A stretch of 61,567 bases of DNA from a virus: IMG/VR virus record IMGVR_UViG_3300030108_005279, positions 1-61,567 of that record; one strand, 5' to 3'. The translations under genes were made by a program, and so were the position numbers. How positions within the stretch are numbered: position 1 is the stretch's first letter; each line of letters opens with the position of its first letter. Of the stretch, positions 16,065 through 21,603 are shown in pieces. The notes under the pieces were generated by a model. That model was not told where the DNA came from, did no database searches, and worked only from the letters and a program-made list of their open reading frames with translations.

Positions 16065-17365
16065 ATTTCTCCGAATGAATCTCTAACTAATTTCATTGAT
16101 GTAAATGAACGATCAGGATCAAAGTGATGGCATAATTCCTTAATAATATATTTACCACTTGTTTCACTATCAAATCTTTCCGAATCCTCTCTGGATATTT
16201 TTGGAAACTTACAAGTGATAATATCTCCTGCACGTAAATCAGTATTACAAGGCACAATAATACTTAGTAATTGTGTAACCATTACATTATATCTCATCGC
16301 TGACTGTGCTTGATATTTCGTTGGATCTGCATTTTCAGTCGTTGATACATCAGGTTCAAATGTACCACGATCAATCACTTGAGAAAATACCCTTGATGGA
16401 ATATCACTTAAAGTTTTTTCAGAATCCTCTGATATTTGAGGAAGTTCAACTTTATTCCCTAATTTATCAATACCAGATTCATCAAATTTAAATTGTGCTT
16501 GTTTACATTTAAAAGTGAACGGATCAAAAGTAACTCTCACGGAAGAGTAAGTTCCTAATCTTAATTTTTCAAGCAAATTTTGATTCTTATCAACACCATA
16601 ATTTAAAATTCTAAAATCATTATTTGTTTCAGTTGAACTTTCATTAACCTCTGTGTATGTATAAGTTGCTTTTGATTTTTGTTTTGTAAGATTATCAATT
16701 GATTTAAATCTAAATCCATCTTGCGTTTGATAGAATAAAAATCCTGCAGTCGTATCACCAGATTTATCAAGCACTGATTTTGATGCTAACCATACTAATA
16801 TTGTGAATGGTTTTCTTAAGTTACCTATAAATTGATAGTCATTGCTTGTATCATCAACTTCATAACGATCTGTCTCAGTTGCAAGAACATCTTTTAATAT
16901 TGTTTCAACTGAGGTGCTTATCTTTGCAGAATATTTTTTAAACACTCTCGTGGTTTCATTTGAGATTGCTTCTCGTGACACAAGATTCAGCATGAAACTC
17001 TCTCTTTGTGATTCGGAGATTACTTCAGTAATACTTGAGACGATTAAGTTTCGATCTGGATCTGTAAAATCAAGTCCTGTCTTATCTTCACCTGAACCAG
17101 TCTTTCCGTGATCCAAAATTTTCATAGATAATCTCTCCCCACCACGAAGAGGAAGACCATTATAAATGGATTGCCTTTCTTTCTCTCCCTCTACTGCAAT
17201 TGTATCACCAGTGTTCACAACTCTCATCTTCGCGGTAATTGTAGGAGAGAATAAATCCTCATAATAATCAATCGAAATTGTACCGAGTTTTAAATCGACT
17301 GTTCTTGACCTATCATTTGATTCGATCGTGAGTTCTTCGTAGAGTGATGCTTCTGATGCTGACAT
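16061..17365 (-). CDS. Baseplate hub protein, gp27-like
   Basis: 434 residues. The N-terminus reads YEELTIESNDRSRTVDLKL, then ISIDYYEDLFSPTITAKMRV and GERLSMKI, with long beta strands; the C-terminus has TDLRAGDIITCKFPKISRED and SGKYIIKELCHHFDP. The latter resembles the domain that closes hub proteins of contractile tails (gp27, gpD). Position is the main argument: in the order tube initiator gp54, chaperone gp26, tape measure, then this gene, then gp5, it lies exactly where gp27 should lie, and it overlaps gp5 by four bases. T4 gp27 is 391 residues, close in size. It would form the trimeric base on which the spike sits. Confidence 0.62.
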   Translation of the reverse strand: MSASEASLYEELTIESNDRSRTVDLKLGTISIDYYEDLFSPTITAKMRVVNTGDTIAVEGEKERQSIYNGLPLRGGERLSMKILDHGKTGSGEDKTGLDFTDPDRNLIVSSITEVISESQRESFMLNLVSREAISNETTRVFKKYSAKISTSVETILKDVLATETDRYEVDDTSNDYQFIGNLRKPFTILVWLASKSVLDKSGDTTAGFLFYQTQDGFRFKSIDNLTKQKSKATYTYTEVNESSTETNNDFRILNYGVDKNQNLLEKLRLGTYSSVRVTFDPFTFKCKQAQFKFDESGIDKLGNKVELPQISEDSEKTLSDIPSRVFSQVIDRGTFEPDVSTTENADPTKYQAQSAMRYNVMVTQLLSIIVPCNTDLRAGDIITCKFPKISREDSERFDSETSGKYIIKELCHHFDPDRSFTSMKLVRDSFGEI

Positions 17366-18621
17366 TATGTGTATGCTGCGTCGGTTAAAATACTTTCCTT
17401 AATATTACTATTTAAGGACTTTCCTAATACGATGATATTAGTTTCACCACCACCTGCTTGTTGCACCACTGGTGGTATTGGTGGTAATATGTTATCAATA
17501 ATAATATCTTTACCTTTCTTTTGTGGAGTAATTGAACTTCCCAAATCCATTGGAGTAGGTAGTTTTGATATAATATTATCTTTTTTTACAGAAGTATCAA
17601 ATTTTTGAGTTTGACCATAATTTTGTATCTGTTCTTTTTTTGACATATTAGCAAACTTATTATATTCATCAGCTGAAACTTCTTTGTTGTTAATGTAAGT
17701 TTTTCCAGTCTCAAGATCAAACCTACCAGTAACTTCTCGCTCCATAGAAATTTTTTTAGTGATAACTTTTGCATCGATTTTATCTAATTCATTTTTACCC
17801 TTTTCGATAGCATCATTTAAATTATTACTAAGTTGATCAGTATCCTTATTTAAAATATTTGTTTCAGTTTTCAAAGTATCCAAAGCACCTTTATTCTCAT
17901 CTATTTTCCCTTTAGTTTCATTAACATTTGATGTAGCGTCACCTCCTAATCCTGTCTTTCCTAATTTTTTTGGATCCTCACTTTTCTTTGAATTAACTAA
18001 ACTAACACCCTTACCAATGTCTGTGATTAGATTTGTAAAAGCATCTTTCAATCCTCTTATTTTTTCTTTAATTGAATCTCCTATTTTACTAAAGTCAAGA
18101 TTTTTAAGTTTATCAATTGTGCCACCAATCACATCTTTGATACCACTAAAAAATTCACCAAATGATCCAAAGAATCCAATTATTTTATCATAAATGTCTT
18201 TTATTTTTTTGATTACTCCCTTAACTGAATCAATTATCTTTGGTAAATTTACAACAACCCAACCAATTAATACTGTTGAAATAAAATCTATTATTTTTTG
18301 TAAGACACCGCCACCTTTTTTCATAATTTTTGAAGGATTTGGTTTTTTTTCTTTATTATTTCTTTTTTCAAGCAATTCCTCTTCTTGTTTTCTCTTATCT
18401 CTTTCATTTTTTTTCTTCTGTGCCCTATCTTTTGACATAAATGTCTCTTTATTAATTTTTCTTTTTTTAATTACCGCCTTTTTAACATTACCTGCAACTT
18501 TCTTTGATTTTTTTAATACAGTGCCACCTTTCTTCATCGCCATCTTTCCACCTTTTGCGATTGCTCCTCCCGTCTTTGCGAGCATAGAACCTACTTTTAA
18601 TGCTGCTGCTGTGATTGCCAT
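17365..18621 (-). CDS. Tape-measure-like hub protein B
   Basis: 418 residues. Residues 1-100 are extremely basic, Ala/Lys/Gly-rich, then Lys/Glu-rich coiled coil (RDKRKQEEELLEK). A hydrophobic segment FISTVLIGWVVVNLPKII follows at about 112-130, then amphipathic Lys-rich helices, Asn/Lys-rich linker, and a C-terminus PPIPPVVQQAGGGETNIIVL. Basic start, coiled coil and pore-like hydrophobic segment are features of tail tape measure and membrane-perforating proteins. It directly follows the 466-residue gene, which has the same architecture, and precedes gp27 and gp5. I infer that the two together replace T4 gp29. No enzyme motif is visible. Confidence 0.55.
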   Translation of the reverse strand: MAITAAALKVGSMLAKTGGAIAKGGKMAMKKGGTVLKKSKKVAGNVKKAVIKKRKINKETFMSKDRAQKKKNERDKRKQEEELLEKRNNKEKKPNPSKIMKKGGGVLQKIIDFISTVLIGWVVVNLPKIIDSVKGVIKKIKDIYDKIIGFFGSFGEFFSGIKDVIGGTIDKLKNLDFSKIGDSIKEKIRGLKDAFTNLITDIGKGVSLVNSKKSEDPKKLGKTGLGGDATSNVNETKGKIDENKGALDTLKTETNILNKDTDQLSNNLNDAIEKGKNELDKIDAKVITKKISMEREVTGRFDLETGKTYINNKEVSADEYNKFANMSKKEQIQNYGQTQKFDTSVKKDNIISKLPTPMDLGSSITPQKKGKDIIIDNILPPIPPVVQQAGGGETNIIVLGKSLNSNIKESILTDAAYT

Positions 18622-20022
18622 TTACACCACCACCCCGTATTGTGTCTGTGAAAATGTTGAGTAAAAATTATTTGGATTTGATGTTGCAATCAATGGAACA
18701 TCAGATTGTCTACCAGATTTCAATGGTTGATCACCACTTTTTTTACTTTCTAAATTATTTACAATAACATTTGGTGCATTATCATCAACTGCAGATAAAT
18801 TTGGATTTTTTTGAACTTTCGAAATATTGTTTGAATTTGATGGAGTTATAGTTTGTGAGTTACCATTAATCATAGCTTCATATTTCGCACGAACTTCCGC
18901 TTCTAATTGTTTTTTCTTTTCTAAATCTTCTTTTGTAAAATATGCTTGACCTTTATCTCTACCCGCAGTTTTAACACCACTCTTTTCAACTGTTGCCTTC
19001 TGTGCATCCATTTCTTTTCTCATACTATCTCTTATACCTATCACTTTATCTCTTTGTGTAATATAGTTTGCAACTATTTCTTTTTGTTCTGGTGTTCCTG
19101 CTTTTTCTACAGTTTCTTGTCCTCTTCCTCTAGAATTTGCCTTTCCAACATAAAACTTTTCATTTTTACCTGATCCTTTAATCGTAATACCAGCTTCTGT
19201 TAGAGGACCTTTGAGATCATCAAATTTTTGTTTAAACTTTTGACCACCAGCAGCTTTCGTTGATGCTGCGTCAACTGCCTTTTTCATTCCAAAGAGAACA
19301 CCAACTCCTGCTGCTAATCCCAGTGCAATCAAACCTGCAGGAGACAATAAAAATCCAAGAATTGCACTTCCAACTGTCCCTATCACAGCGATTACTTTTG
19401 CGATTATTGCTGGTAGTGCCAATATTCCAACATTCATAGCAAGAAATACACCTCCAACAACCGCAAGTGCACCAACAACATTCATTCCAATTTTTTTCAA
19501 CTTCTCCTTATCACCATCCATAAACGCTTGAATTGCTTTTAACCCTTTATCAGTCAACCAACCAACGAATATTAATTCAAACGCTGCCATTAATTTAGAC
19601 AATATACCTTTTGCTTTTTTGCCAACCGCCTTGACCGGTGCGAGTAAAGCATTCTTCAATCTCTCAGGGACTTTCTCTAATAATCCTTCCTTCTTTTTTC
19701 GGTTTTCCTTTTCTCCTGCCAATAATAATTGACGATTTTCTTTTGCTGTATCCTTTTTCTTTTCCTCTGCGTCAGTGATTATAAAGTTAGATATTTTTTG
19801 TAGAGTTTCTTGAATATTTGCAATCGACTTCATCACAGATTCCATATTTGCCTGAGGTTTATCAACCTTGACTATTGCAGACTTATCAAATACTTTGCTT
19901 GGATCAAGTTTTCTTTTTCTAAGTTTAAAAACCTGCTTTCTTTCATCAGGAGACAAGTACTCTCCTGTCTTCGGATTGACTCCTGTAAACTCTGGATTTA
20001 ATTTTGGTAGAAGACTAGCCAC
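18622..20022 (-). CDS. Tape-measure-like hub protein A (GTG start)
   Basis: 466 residues from a GTG codon at 20022-20020; that start overlaps the end of the 58-codon ORF. Residues 1-130 are charged and coiled-coil-like (SIANIQETLQKISNF, EEKKKDTAKENRQ). A segment ALLAPVKAVGKKAKGI precedes an amphipathic helix LMAAFELIFVGWLTDKGLKA, which parallels the VLIGWVV segment of the next gene. Residues about 182-255 are three or four hydrophobic helices (VGALAVVGGVFLAMNVG, IIAKVIAVIGTVGSAILG, LIALGLAAGVGVLF). The C-terminal part is hydrophilic. The gene follows gp26 plus a short ORF, the place of the tape measure in most long-tailed phages, and hydrophobic segments fit that role. 466 residues at 1.5 angstroms each would span about 70 nm. 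Confidence 0.58.
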   Translation of the reverse strand: MASLLPKLNPEFTGVNPKTGEYLSPDERKQVFKLRKRKLDPSKVFDKSAIVKVDKPQANMESVMKSIANIQETLQKISNFIITDAEEKKKDTAKENRQLLLAGEKENRKKKEGLLEKVPERLKNALLAPVKAVGKKAKGILSKLMAAFELIFVGWLTDKGLKAIQAFMDGDKEKLKKIGMNVVGALAVVGGVFLAMNVGILALPAIIAKVIAVIGTVGSAILGFLLSPAGLIALGLAAGVGVLFGMKKAVDAASTKAAGGQKFKQKFDDLKGPLTEAGITIKGSGKNEKFYVGKANSRGRGQETVEKAGTPEQKEIVANYITQRDKVIGIRDSMRKEMDAQKATVEKSGVKTAGRDKGQAYFTKEDLEKKKQLEAEVRAKYEAMINGNSQTITPSNSNNISKVQKNPNLSAVDDNAPNVIVNNLESKKSGDQPLKSGRQSDVPLIATSNPNNFYSTFSQTQYGVVV

Positions 20023-20191
20023 TTTGCTGTTGTTGTTTTAGATTTTCTTCTTCAATATACTGTTCTAAGAGAGCAACATATACATCTTTTTCCCAAGGGA
20101 TCATATTTTCAATCTCTGTCAAAGAGTATTTATGGTGTTGCATCAAGGCAAAGTTTATCTTAAAGTATGACGCAAGATCAGTATGCGCCAT
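20015..20191 (-). CDS. 58-codon ORF, putative frameshift extension of gp26
   Basis: Reads MAHTDLASYFKINFALMQHH, then KYSLTEIENMIPWEKDVYVA and ends Gln-rich. It starts three bases after the gp26 stop codon and lies in the -1 frame relative to gp26. A PWExDVYVxLL helix resembles the conserved core of the T (extension) part of tail-assembly chaperones. The gene sits in the position of T4 gene 51, but it is far shorter than T4 gp51 (about 249 residues). It can be made by re-initiation from its ATG, or as a C-terminal extension of gp26 after -1 slippage at 20200-20206, which would add Arg-Val-Gly plus these 58 residues. Confidence 0.72.
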   Translation of the reverse strand: MAHTDLASYFKINFALMQHHKYSLTEIENMIPWEKDVYVALLEQYIEEENLKQQQQSG

Positions 20192-20193
20192 AC

Positions 20194-20910
20194 CTACTCG
20201 AAAAAAGATGCTAACCCTTCTAAAACTATTTCATTCTCAACCTTTGTATTTGGATTTACAACTTTCACTTTATGAGAAAGTTTTGGCATGGTTTCAAAAA
20301 ACTTTTCAACTTCTTTGAATTGTTTTGAACTTAACTGTTCAATAAACTCTGTCAATTCTTTCTTCGTGCAATCAGATGATGTCCAAGATTCTTCTTCATT
20401 AAATACTTGATCGACACATGCAGTAATCATGTCAAATGATTCACTCACTCCGATATTCTCAACATCAAAATTATTCTTTACAAATTCACCGAGTGATGGA
20501 TATTTCATTCTCATTGTAAGAGTGTCATCAAGTTTGATATCAAGTTTATGTTCAGGGTCTTTTTGAACTTTGATTGCATCTAAGTCAATAACTACAGGAA
20601 CTTGTGTTTCACCATCATCAGGGCAAGTTACAAGAACCTCCACACTCTCACCCACTGACTTACCACGAATATTTAAAAATAGATATTCAATATCAAATGT
20701 TGACAACTTATCAACTTTCGTTCCACGAGTTAAAATACAATTTCCAATGACAGTTTTGATCGCATTTGTAATCTGTTTCTGATCTTCAGATTCCATAGCA
20801 ATAATTAAAAGTTTCTCTTCTTTGACCAAAAAAGGACGATATTTTATTTTTCGATTCGAAGAAGGTAAAACCAATTCATACGTCGGGGTTGCAATTCTTG
20901 GTAAAGGCAT
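20194..20910 (-). CDS. 26: Baseplate hub assembly protein gp26 (tail assembly chaperone)
   Basis: 238 residues beginning MPLPRIATPTYELVLPSSNR, followed by KIKYRPFLVKEEKLLIIAME, the recognisable start of the T4 gp26 family. The interior has LTMRMKYPSLGEFVKNNFDV and LTEFIEQLSSKQFKEVEKFF helices; two CxxD/C-type segments (VTCPDDGETQ, TSSDCTKK) are present but no full zinc site. In T4 gp26 acts with gp51 in hub assembly around the tape measure. The gene follows gp54 and precedes the tape-measure-like genes. Its last codons TCT TTT TTC GAG TAG carry a -1 slippery site (see 20200-20206). Confidence 0.85.
   Translation of the reverse strand: MPLPRIATPTYELVLPSSNRKIKYRPFLVKEEKLLIIAMESEDQKQITNAIKTVIGNCILTRGTKVDKLSTFDIEYLFLNIRGKSVGESVEVLVTCPDDGETQVPVVIDLDAIKVQKDPEHKLDIKLDDTLTMRMKYPSLGEFVKNNFDVENIGVSESFDMITACVDQVFNEEESWTSSDCTKKELTEFIEQLSSKQFKEVEKFFETMPKLSHKVKVVNPNTKVENEIVLEGLASFFE
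20200..20206 (-). other. Candidate -1 programmed ribosomal frameshift site T TTT TTC
   Basis: On the minus strand the gp26 reading frame runs TCT TTT TTC GAG TAG, giving the canonical X XXY YYZ heptamer T TTT TTC two codons before the stop. Five bases after it, GGTATG GCG CATACT can fold into a six-pair hairpin (one G-U). An AGAAGGG element resembling an internal Shine-Dalgarno lies about ten bases before it. The -1 frame is open into the 58-codon ORF and would give a 298-residue fusion. Confidence 0.6.
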
Positions 20911-20943: not shown

Positions 20944-21603
20944 TTAGGAATTATTTTCAGATGATCCTCTGACGATGCTTAGATTAGTTGACTCACCTGC
21001 AACGTATCTTTCATAGTTAAAGGTGACATTACATCTTAATACGTCAGAACTTCCATACTGAACGGGAGTTGATGCAAAATTAATCGGAAACATACCAATA
21101 AAAGTATACTCGATTTCTTTCTGATAGTCAATATTAAACTTAACAATCTTCGTCTTGTCACACTTGTAACCTGAGTCACCTCTTGGATATCTCATACGAT
21201 AAAAATATCCTGGTGATGCTTTTGAAAATGAAGTAATTCTTCTTTTTTCTGATCCACTTGATATGTAATCCATCCAATGTTCAAAGAACTTGATCATCTT
21301 GTAATCCTTATCAACATAAAACTCCAAAGACATTTCTGAAAAAATTCTTGTGTGTGCAAATTTTTCTTGAACACCAGTAAAGTTTCCAAATATATCACTT
21401 GTTGCCAGTGCACTGCCAGGTATTGAAGCAGAACTACATAATAATCCTGAATTATCTGTTATAAATCTTCTATCTACATTTTTGCTTCCTAAAAATGAGA
21501 ATAAACTTGGTGACAAACCATCAAAAAACACTTGATAATGCGACGTTTGTGCCACATTCGTCAGTATTGGTTTAAATTCAGATATTTTTTTAGGTGAAAC
21601 CAT
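20944..21603 (-). CDS. 54: Baseplate tail-tube initiator gp54-like
   Basis: 219 residues, with a tube-protein-like fold: SHYQVFFDGLSPSLFSFLG, ASIPGSALATSDIFGNFTGV, KFAHTRIFSEMSLEFYVDKD, KFFEHWMDYISSG and YTFIGMFPINFASTPVQYGS. These blocks are shared by T4 gp19 (tube) and gp54 (initiator). I choose gp54 because the divergent neighbour operon encodes gp48 and gp53 and because the gene adjoins gp26; T4 gp54 is longer (320 residues), so a gp19 paralogue is the alternative. Its ATG (21603) is one end of a 10-bp inverted repeat whose other end contains the ATG of gp4, so the two divergent genes share a 37-base control region. Confidence 0.7.
   Translation of the reverse strand: MVSPKKISEFKPILTNVAQTSHYQVFFDGLSPSLFSFLGSKNVDRRFITDNSGLLCSSASIPGSALATSDIFGNFTGVQEKFAHTRIFSEMSLEFYVDKDYKMIKFFEHWMDYISSGSEKRRITSFSKASPGYFYRMRYPRGDSGYKCDKTKIVKFNIDYQKEIEYTFIGMFPINFASTPVQYGSSDVLRCNVTFNYERYVAGESTNLSIVRGSSENNS

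Follow-up and report, generated by a model that had tools for sequence, protein, structure and literature searches.

The stretch of DNA analysed here, referred to below as the window, is a virus record of 61.6 kb (61,567 nucleotides) from a T4-like marine phage, and all of the features of its putative tail-assembly chaperone locus lie on the minus strand. In their 5' to 3' order on that strand they are:

20944..21603, minus: 5' neighbour, a tail-tube-family protein in the gp54-like position (Phage_TTP_2, 9e-17; phrog_45, 2e-35)
20194..20910, minus: gene 26 (gp26, 238 aa), the predicted "short" chaperone form, TAC-N or G-like (PF12322, 1e-73; phrog_150, 6.8e-81)
20215..20221 (read 20221-20215), minus: Shine-Dalgarno (SD)-like element AGAAGGG, 8 nt 5' of the slippery site
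20200..20206 (read 20206-20200), minus: slippery heptamer T TTT TTC, in phase with the gp26 frame
20199-20197, minus: GAG codon between the heptamer and the stop
20194..20196 (read 20196-20194), minus: gp26 stop codon TAG, 3 nt past the heptamer
20163..20195, minus: predicted stimulatory hairpin, stem core GTATGGCGCA / TGCGTCATAC, with a 9-nt loop
20015..20200, minus: -1 frame segment (CGA GTA GGT ATG ...), 61 residues, the gp51 tail domain
20015..20191, minus: ATG-initiated form of the -1 open reading frame (ORF), 58 aa, called "gp51" in the annotation of relatives
18622..20022, minus: 3' neighbour, 466 aa, with a GTG start overlapping the gp51 end; a candidate tape measure on account of its hydrophobic stretch

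The assignment of gp26 to its family is secure, since it scores 248 bits against PF12322, for which the curated cut-off is 24.5. The gene (20910-20194, minus) ends in GCA TCT TTT TTC GAG TAG. A sequence-only reading of the window had proposed that this end carries a canonical slippery heptamer and that the -1 frame is open into an ORF of 58 codons; the position and phase of the heptamer are as proposed, and the ORF is gp51, which bears the annotation name "baseplate hub assembly catalyst". No stop interrupts the -1 frame at the junction (F-F-R-V-G-M-A-H...), the ATG of the ORF (20191-20189, minus) lies five bases past the first base of the gp26 stop codon and two past the stop itself, and the ORF ends at 20015. 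The predicted fusion (TAC-NC, or GT-like) consists of gp26 residues 1-237 and the 61-residue -1 segment, giving 298 aa, with the predicted junction peptide ...ASFFR / VGMAHTDLASYFK. The -1 product matches the gp51 family, phrog_634, over its whole length (7e-30; residues 1-61 of 62, profile positions 56-116 of 121), and it has a second match at the far C-terminal end of phrog_150, the profile of the gp26 family (232-278 of 282).

The presence of the motif in a single genome is no evidence of frameshifting, because TTTTTTC occurs in the window at chance frequency (27 observed, 28.6 expected), and the case is therefore a comparative one. That frequency is what would be seen if the heptamer were an accident of an AT-rich genome whose gp26 happens to end in Phe-Phe. 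Among 80 IMG/VR relatives, however, the pattern TTTTTTC-NNN-stop is present in all 80, and gp51 lies in the -1 frame, with similarity that starts before the ATG, in every relative of this set long enough to score. When the comparison is widened to 196 loci, T TTT TTN is in phase and the -1 frame is open in 193, so that the conservation named by the earlier reading as its own check is borne out in both sets. The 193 heptamers comprise 178 TTTTTTC, 8 TTTTTTT and 7 TTTTTTA, and the distance from heptamer to stop is 10 nt in 190 and 7 nt in 3. Since kinship inflates raw locus counts, counts were also made over clusters of gp26 at 70% amino acid identity, and the heptamer is kept in 39 of 42.

Codon choice within the heptamer is frozen. 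TTT makes up its first Phe codon in 169 of 169 sequences (100%) but its second in no more than 4%; the remaining Phe columns of gp26 have 44-93% TTT and the gene body of the window-like set has 636 TTT codons against 206 of the other kind, about three in four. The base 5' of TTT TTN is always T, supplied by AGT, TCT, GCT, AAT or GAT codons; Ala codons elsewhere end in T in only 29% of cases. Conservation in 193 of 196 loci over very divergent gp26s, together with the frozen codons and the covarying stem described below, refutes an accidental origin, the probability of which is negligible.

The signals are found in Kyanoviridae, in KVP40-like and Aeh1/CC2/S13-like phages, in pf16-, Stenotrophomonas Yut3- and Rhizobium Y68-type phages, and in Acinetobacter SH-Ab 15599. 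T TTT TTN is absent from three of the 196 loci, those of Vibrio K355 (L089), Vibrio GR28A (L091) and Aeromonas phiA8-29 (L094), in which gp26 ends in A CTT TTC or G GCT TTC, with a TAATG overlap in two of the three; a gp51-like or -1 frame ORF still follows gp26 in each.

The two stimulatory elements that accompany the heptamer are also conserved. The SD-like AGAAGGG noted in the sequence-only reading is a general feature of the locus, where such an element stands 7-9 nt 5' of the heptamer: a tetramer of the SD core is located 7-22 nt 5' of the heptamer in 152 of 159 distinct relatives, with starts that peak at 12-15 nt. At the Glu column that falls in this element, GAG is used in 87 of 137 cases (64%) versus 560 of 1685 (33%) elsewhere, and GGG is enriched at the Gly codon that follows.

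Downstream, a hairpin stem of 12 bp, in which 20195-20184 pairs with 20174-20163, begins 4 nt past the heptamer. In the window it folds at -16.1 kcal/mol (z = -4.0), and none of 200 shuffles is as good. In 71 sequences, the 10 core pairs of the stem are paired in 82.7% of cases, compared with 25-45% when the pairing is slid, and 36 changes affect both sides of a pair; at one pair UA occurs 30 times, GC 14 and AU 12. Over 70 loci, the 45-nt window past the heptamer has a mean folding z of -2.8, while most flanking windows have values close to 0 and none goes past -1.1, so that structure peaks only after the heptamer. RNAalifold found no common structure when 71 junctions were folded together, since more than one kind of stem occurs among them; the direct count of the window-type stem succeeded. 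In other lineages the place is taken by compact hairpins of another sequence (CCCTC-GAGGG in P-HM1, for example), and three loci (L024, L040 and L070) and Cronobacter S13 have at most a weak one. The smaller hairpin proposed earlier, GGTATG-GCG-CATACT, can form, but it is not the stable, conserved stem, which is the longer one of 12 bp; the two use overlapping bases and are mutually exclusive.

These elements bear on the idea that RNA polymerase, rather than the ribosome, fuses the frames by adding a base on the run of six to eight T. Every variant of the heptamer does contain at least six T. Six T is nevertheless short for efficient slippage by a host polymerase, and a conserved SD-like element and a compensating RNA hairpin fit ribosomes and not a polymerase, which leaves transcriptional slippage very improbable.

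The reading preferred here, to which a probability of roughly 0.87 may be attached, is that a programmed -1 frameshift at T TTT TTC yields gp26 and a gp26-gp51 fusion as the short and long members of a tail-assembly chaperone pair. A ribosome translating gene 26 would meet T TTT TTC just 5' of the stop codon, with the SD-like element paired to 16S rRNA behind it and the hairpin ahead of it, and a minority of ribosomes would slip back by one base. The slipped ribosomes would continue in the -1 frame through gp51 to produce the 298-aa fusion, and those that did not slip would terminate at TAG to produce the 238-aa gp26. Both products would then serve as short and long forms of a tape-measure (tail-assembly) chaperone, like gpG and gpGT of lambda or gpE and E+E' of P2. 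The signals, their conservation and the homology of the fusion are evident in the sequences themselves, and they strongly support the mechanism; the slippage itself, its rate and the chaperone role of the products are inferences.

The same pair of reading frames could in principle express gp51 separately, by termination and reinitiation at the AUG two bases past the gp26 stop, with the heptamer being incidental. The window does have a start codon at this place, as do 66 of 149 distinct relatives, and TAATG or TGATG overlaps exist in a few phages. In the other 83 of the 149 distinct junctions, however, ATG, GTG and TTG are all missing at the usual place, so that only a fusion could express gp51 there, and in 76 of the 178 TTTTTTC loci no start codon occurs in any part of the -1 frame that could be reached. 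(These tallies, like those of the hairpins, depend on simple counting rules.) The AUG of the window sits within the hairpin stem, and the start codon tracks the stem type: it is present in 57 of 57 junctions with the window-type stem versus 9 of 92 others. The conservation of the start codon is thus explained by the stem, which suggests that the codon is retained for pairing rather than for initiation. In addition, the nearest SD-like element lies 23 nt 5' of the AUG and yet stands at the standard stimulator distance from the heptamer, the codon choice in the heptamer is frozen, and T4 retains the fusion as a single protein. Reinitiation is therefore quite unlikely, and the free gp51 of the usual annotation is probably not the functional product.

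Aeh1 provides a specific instance. A comparison from 2010 reported gp51 as missing from this phage (PMC3037559). The gp51 tail is nevertheless there, in the -1 frame after TTTTTTC (L095, AY266303.2, about 2280-2456), and the first possible start lies 50 nt beyond the gp26 stop. The tail is likewise unannotated in the GenBank entries of S-PRM1 (L083), Cronobacter S13 (L086), Aeromonas CC2 (L088) and ACG-2014i (L218), and in P-HM1 and C48C1 it is annotated with a start placed well inside the domain. It is probable that many database entries for "gp51" begin at the wrong codon or are absent. The idea that phrog_150 holds cyanophage proteins fused in frame, as S-PRM1 seemed to indicate, was abandoned: the same frameshift is present in S-PRM1, whose tail is simply unannotated, and the fused members of phrog_150 are T4-type gp51s.

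The T4 proteins connect the predicted fusion to characterized genes. Residues 1-201 of T4 gp51 (249 aa) match the gp26 family (7.7e-55) and its C-terminal end matches the gp51 tail, so that the protein spans positions 13-280 of phrog_150, while T4 gp26 spans 14-235 only. When 189 virtual fusions are made into a profile, T4 gp51 aligns with it continuously through the frameshift point and scores 52.9 bits, compared with 22.8 for a profile of gp26 alone, and a profile of the tail matches five of five T4-type gp51s and no gp26 convincingly. By these alignments T4 gp51 consists of a gp26 paralogue with a gp51 tail joined to it in frame. It follows that the two genes of T4 represent the same short and long pair that the window phage would make from one gene and a frameshift, and this supports the earlier placement of gp26 in the G/GT class of chaperones. 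The two phages share the same families, and T4 gp51 is co-linear with the predicted fusion; in T4, however, there are two separate genes, and the end of gene 26 has no frameshift site.

The copies of gp26 and gp51 are divergent in T4-, 44RR-, RB49- and Acinetobacter-type phages. In the RB43-like Cronobacter phage leB (L098, 1110-3688) there is a tandem arrangement of gp54, fused gp51, gp26 and gp25, which is plausibly an intermediate between the frameshift locus and the split, divergent genes of T4. The spread of the signals over these groups suggests that the frameshift may be the older state. It is reasonably probable, if well short of certain, that for most T4-superfamily phages beyond the T4-type core (the cyanophages, those like KVP40 and Aeh1, and several groups of Pseudomonas, Rhizobium and Stenotrophomonas phages) gp51 exists only as the frameshifted tail of gp26, its annotated AUG being a by-product of the stimulator stem, and that T4 sensu stricto exchanged the frameshift for a gene duplication with fusion of one copy, while RB43-like phages (gp54-51-26-25) still have the copies in tandem.

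A chaperone function for the pair is suggested by homology, gene order and the literature. The gene 5' of gp26 belongs to the tail-tube family in P-SSM2 as well, and in several relatives it is gp54. Directly after the pair the window has two ORFs of 466 and 418 aa (17365-20022, minus), the first of which has a long hydrophobic stretch rich in Gly and Ala that is typical of tape measure proteins; the 466-aa ORF has no relevant family match, and when downstream genes were scanned against PHROG nothing of the tape-measure kind rose above noise. In one GenBank record, gp26, gp51 and gp28 bear the label of tape measure protein assembly chaperones.

If the frameshift is real, its products might still be a factor for assembly of the baseplate hub instead of a G/GT-class chaperone for the tape measure. 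Historical T4 genetics placed both gp26 and gp51 in hub assembly, and the fold search gave no significant match to a tail-assembly chaperone. The AF2 model of gp26 (pLDDT 86) has its highest Foldseek probability in the PDB, 0.75, with the HK97 tail-assembly chaperone 2ob9_B, at an E value of 0.93 that is not significant. Foldseek with a T4 gp51 model found no useful match and no such chaperone in the PDB, phmmer found no relative of T4 gp51 there, and a Foldseek search of BFVD returned gp26-family and uncharacterised phage proteins. The hub is itself thought to be the place where the tape measure is loaded, however, and the short and long design, the position after a tail-tube-family gene and the rank of 2ob9 all favour the chaperone, as does the title of Vladimirov et al. 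(2022). A role confined to the hub is accordingly unlikely. The T4 proteins have been called chaperones of hub assembly; gp51 is required yet absent from the particle, and the presence of gp26 in the virion is disputed (PMC3004832).

The sequence-only reading held that nothing of this kind was described for T4-like phages, and this is contradicted by Vladimirov, Gautam and Davidson (Virology 2022, 566:9-15), who, according to papers that cite them, identified the tail-assembly chaperones of T4-like phages. Of these papers, PRFect attributes to that work the finding that some T4-like phages have one gene for the short form and another for the long, fused form (PMC10885494), and the Adele paper attributes to it poly-T slippery sequences in their TAC-N genes (PMC12846349). 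The locus in the window is thus a well-supported case of an already known type. What is possibly new here is the covariation of the stimulator, the loss of the gp51 start codon, and the account of the "missing" gp51 of Aeh1.

A -1 signal of the dnaX type consists of an SD element, a heptamer and a hairpin, and the window phage has the same three-part layout with similar spacings; the heptamer differs (A AAA AAG in dnaX versus T TTT TTC), as does the gene. With lambda gpG/gpGT and P2 gpE/E+E' the locus shares a short ORF, -1 slippage near its 3' end, a location among tail genes, and a second ORF that needs no start of its own (PMC5009743). In contrast to those systems, the heptamer is T TTT TTC, the stop follows it by 3 nt, and the extension is only about 61 residues; the likeness drawn here is one of design. 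A 2016 review described G-T frameshifting as conserved among long-tailed phages "except T4" (PMC5009743). Against that exception, the frameshift would be widespread in the T4 superfamily, and genes 26 and 51 of T4 would be the same short and long pair made in another way. The frameshift and the T4 gene fusion would together also explain a puzzle raised in 2010, when cyanophage gp51 was found to be without the first 200 residues of T4 gp51 (PMC3037559): both the shortness of the cyanophage protein and its seeming absence from Aeh1 would follow.

Elsewhere in the window, two adjacent ORFs with a 4-base overlap lie at 537-1909 on the minus strand. The 252-aa ORF of this pair matches a DNA methyltransferase family over only part of its length (123-348 of 743), and the gene may be split.
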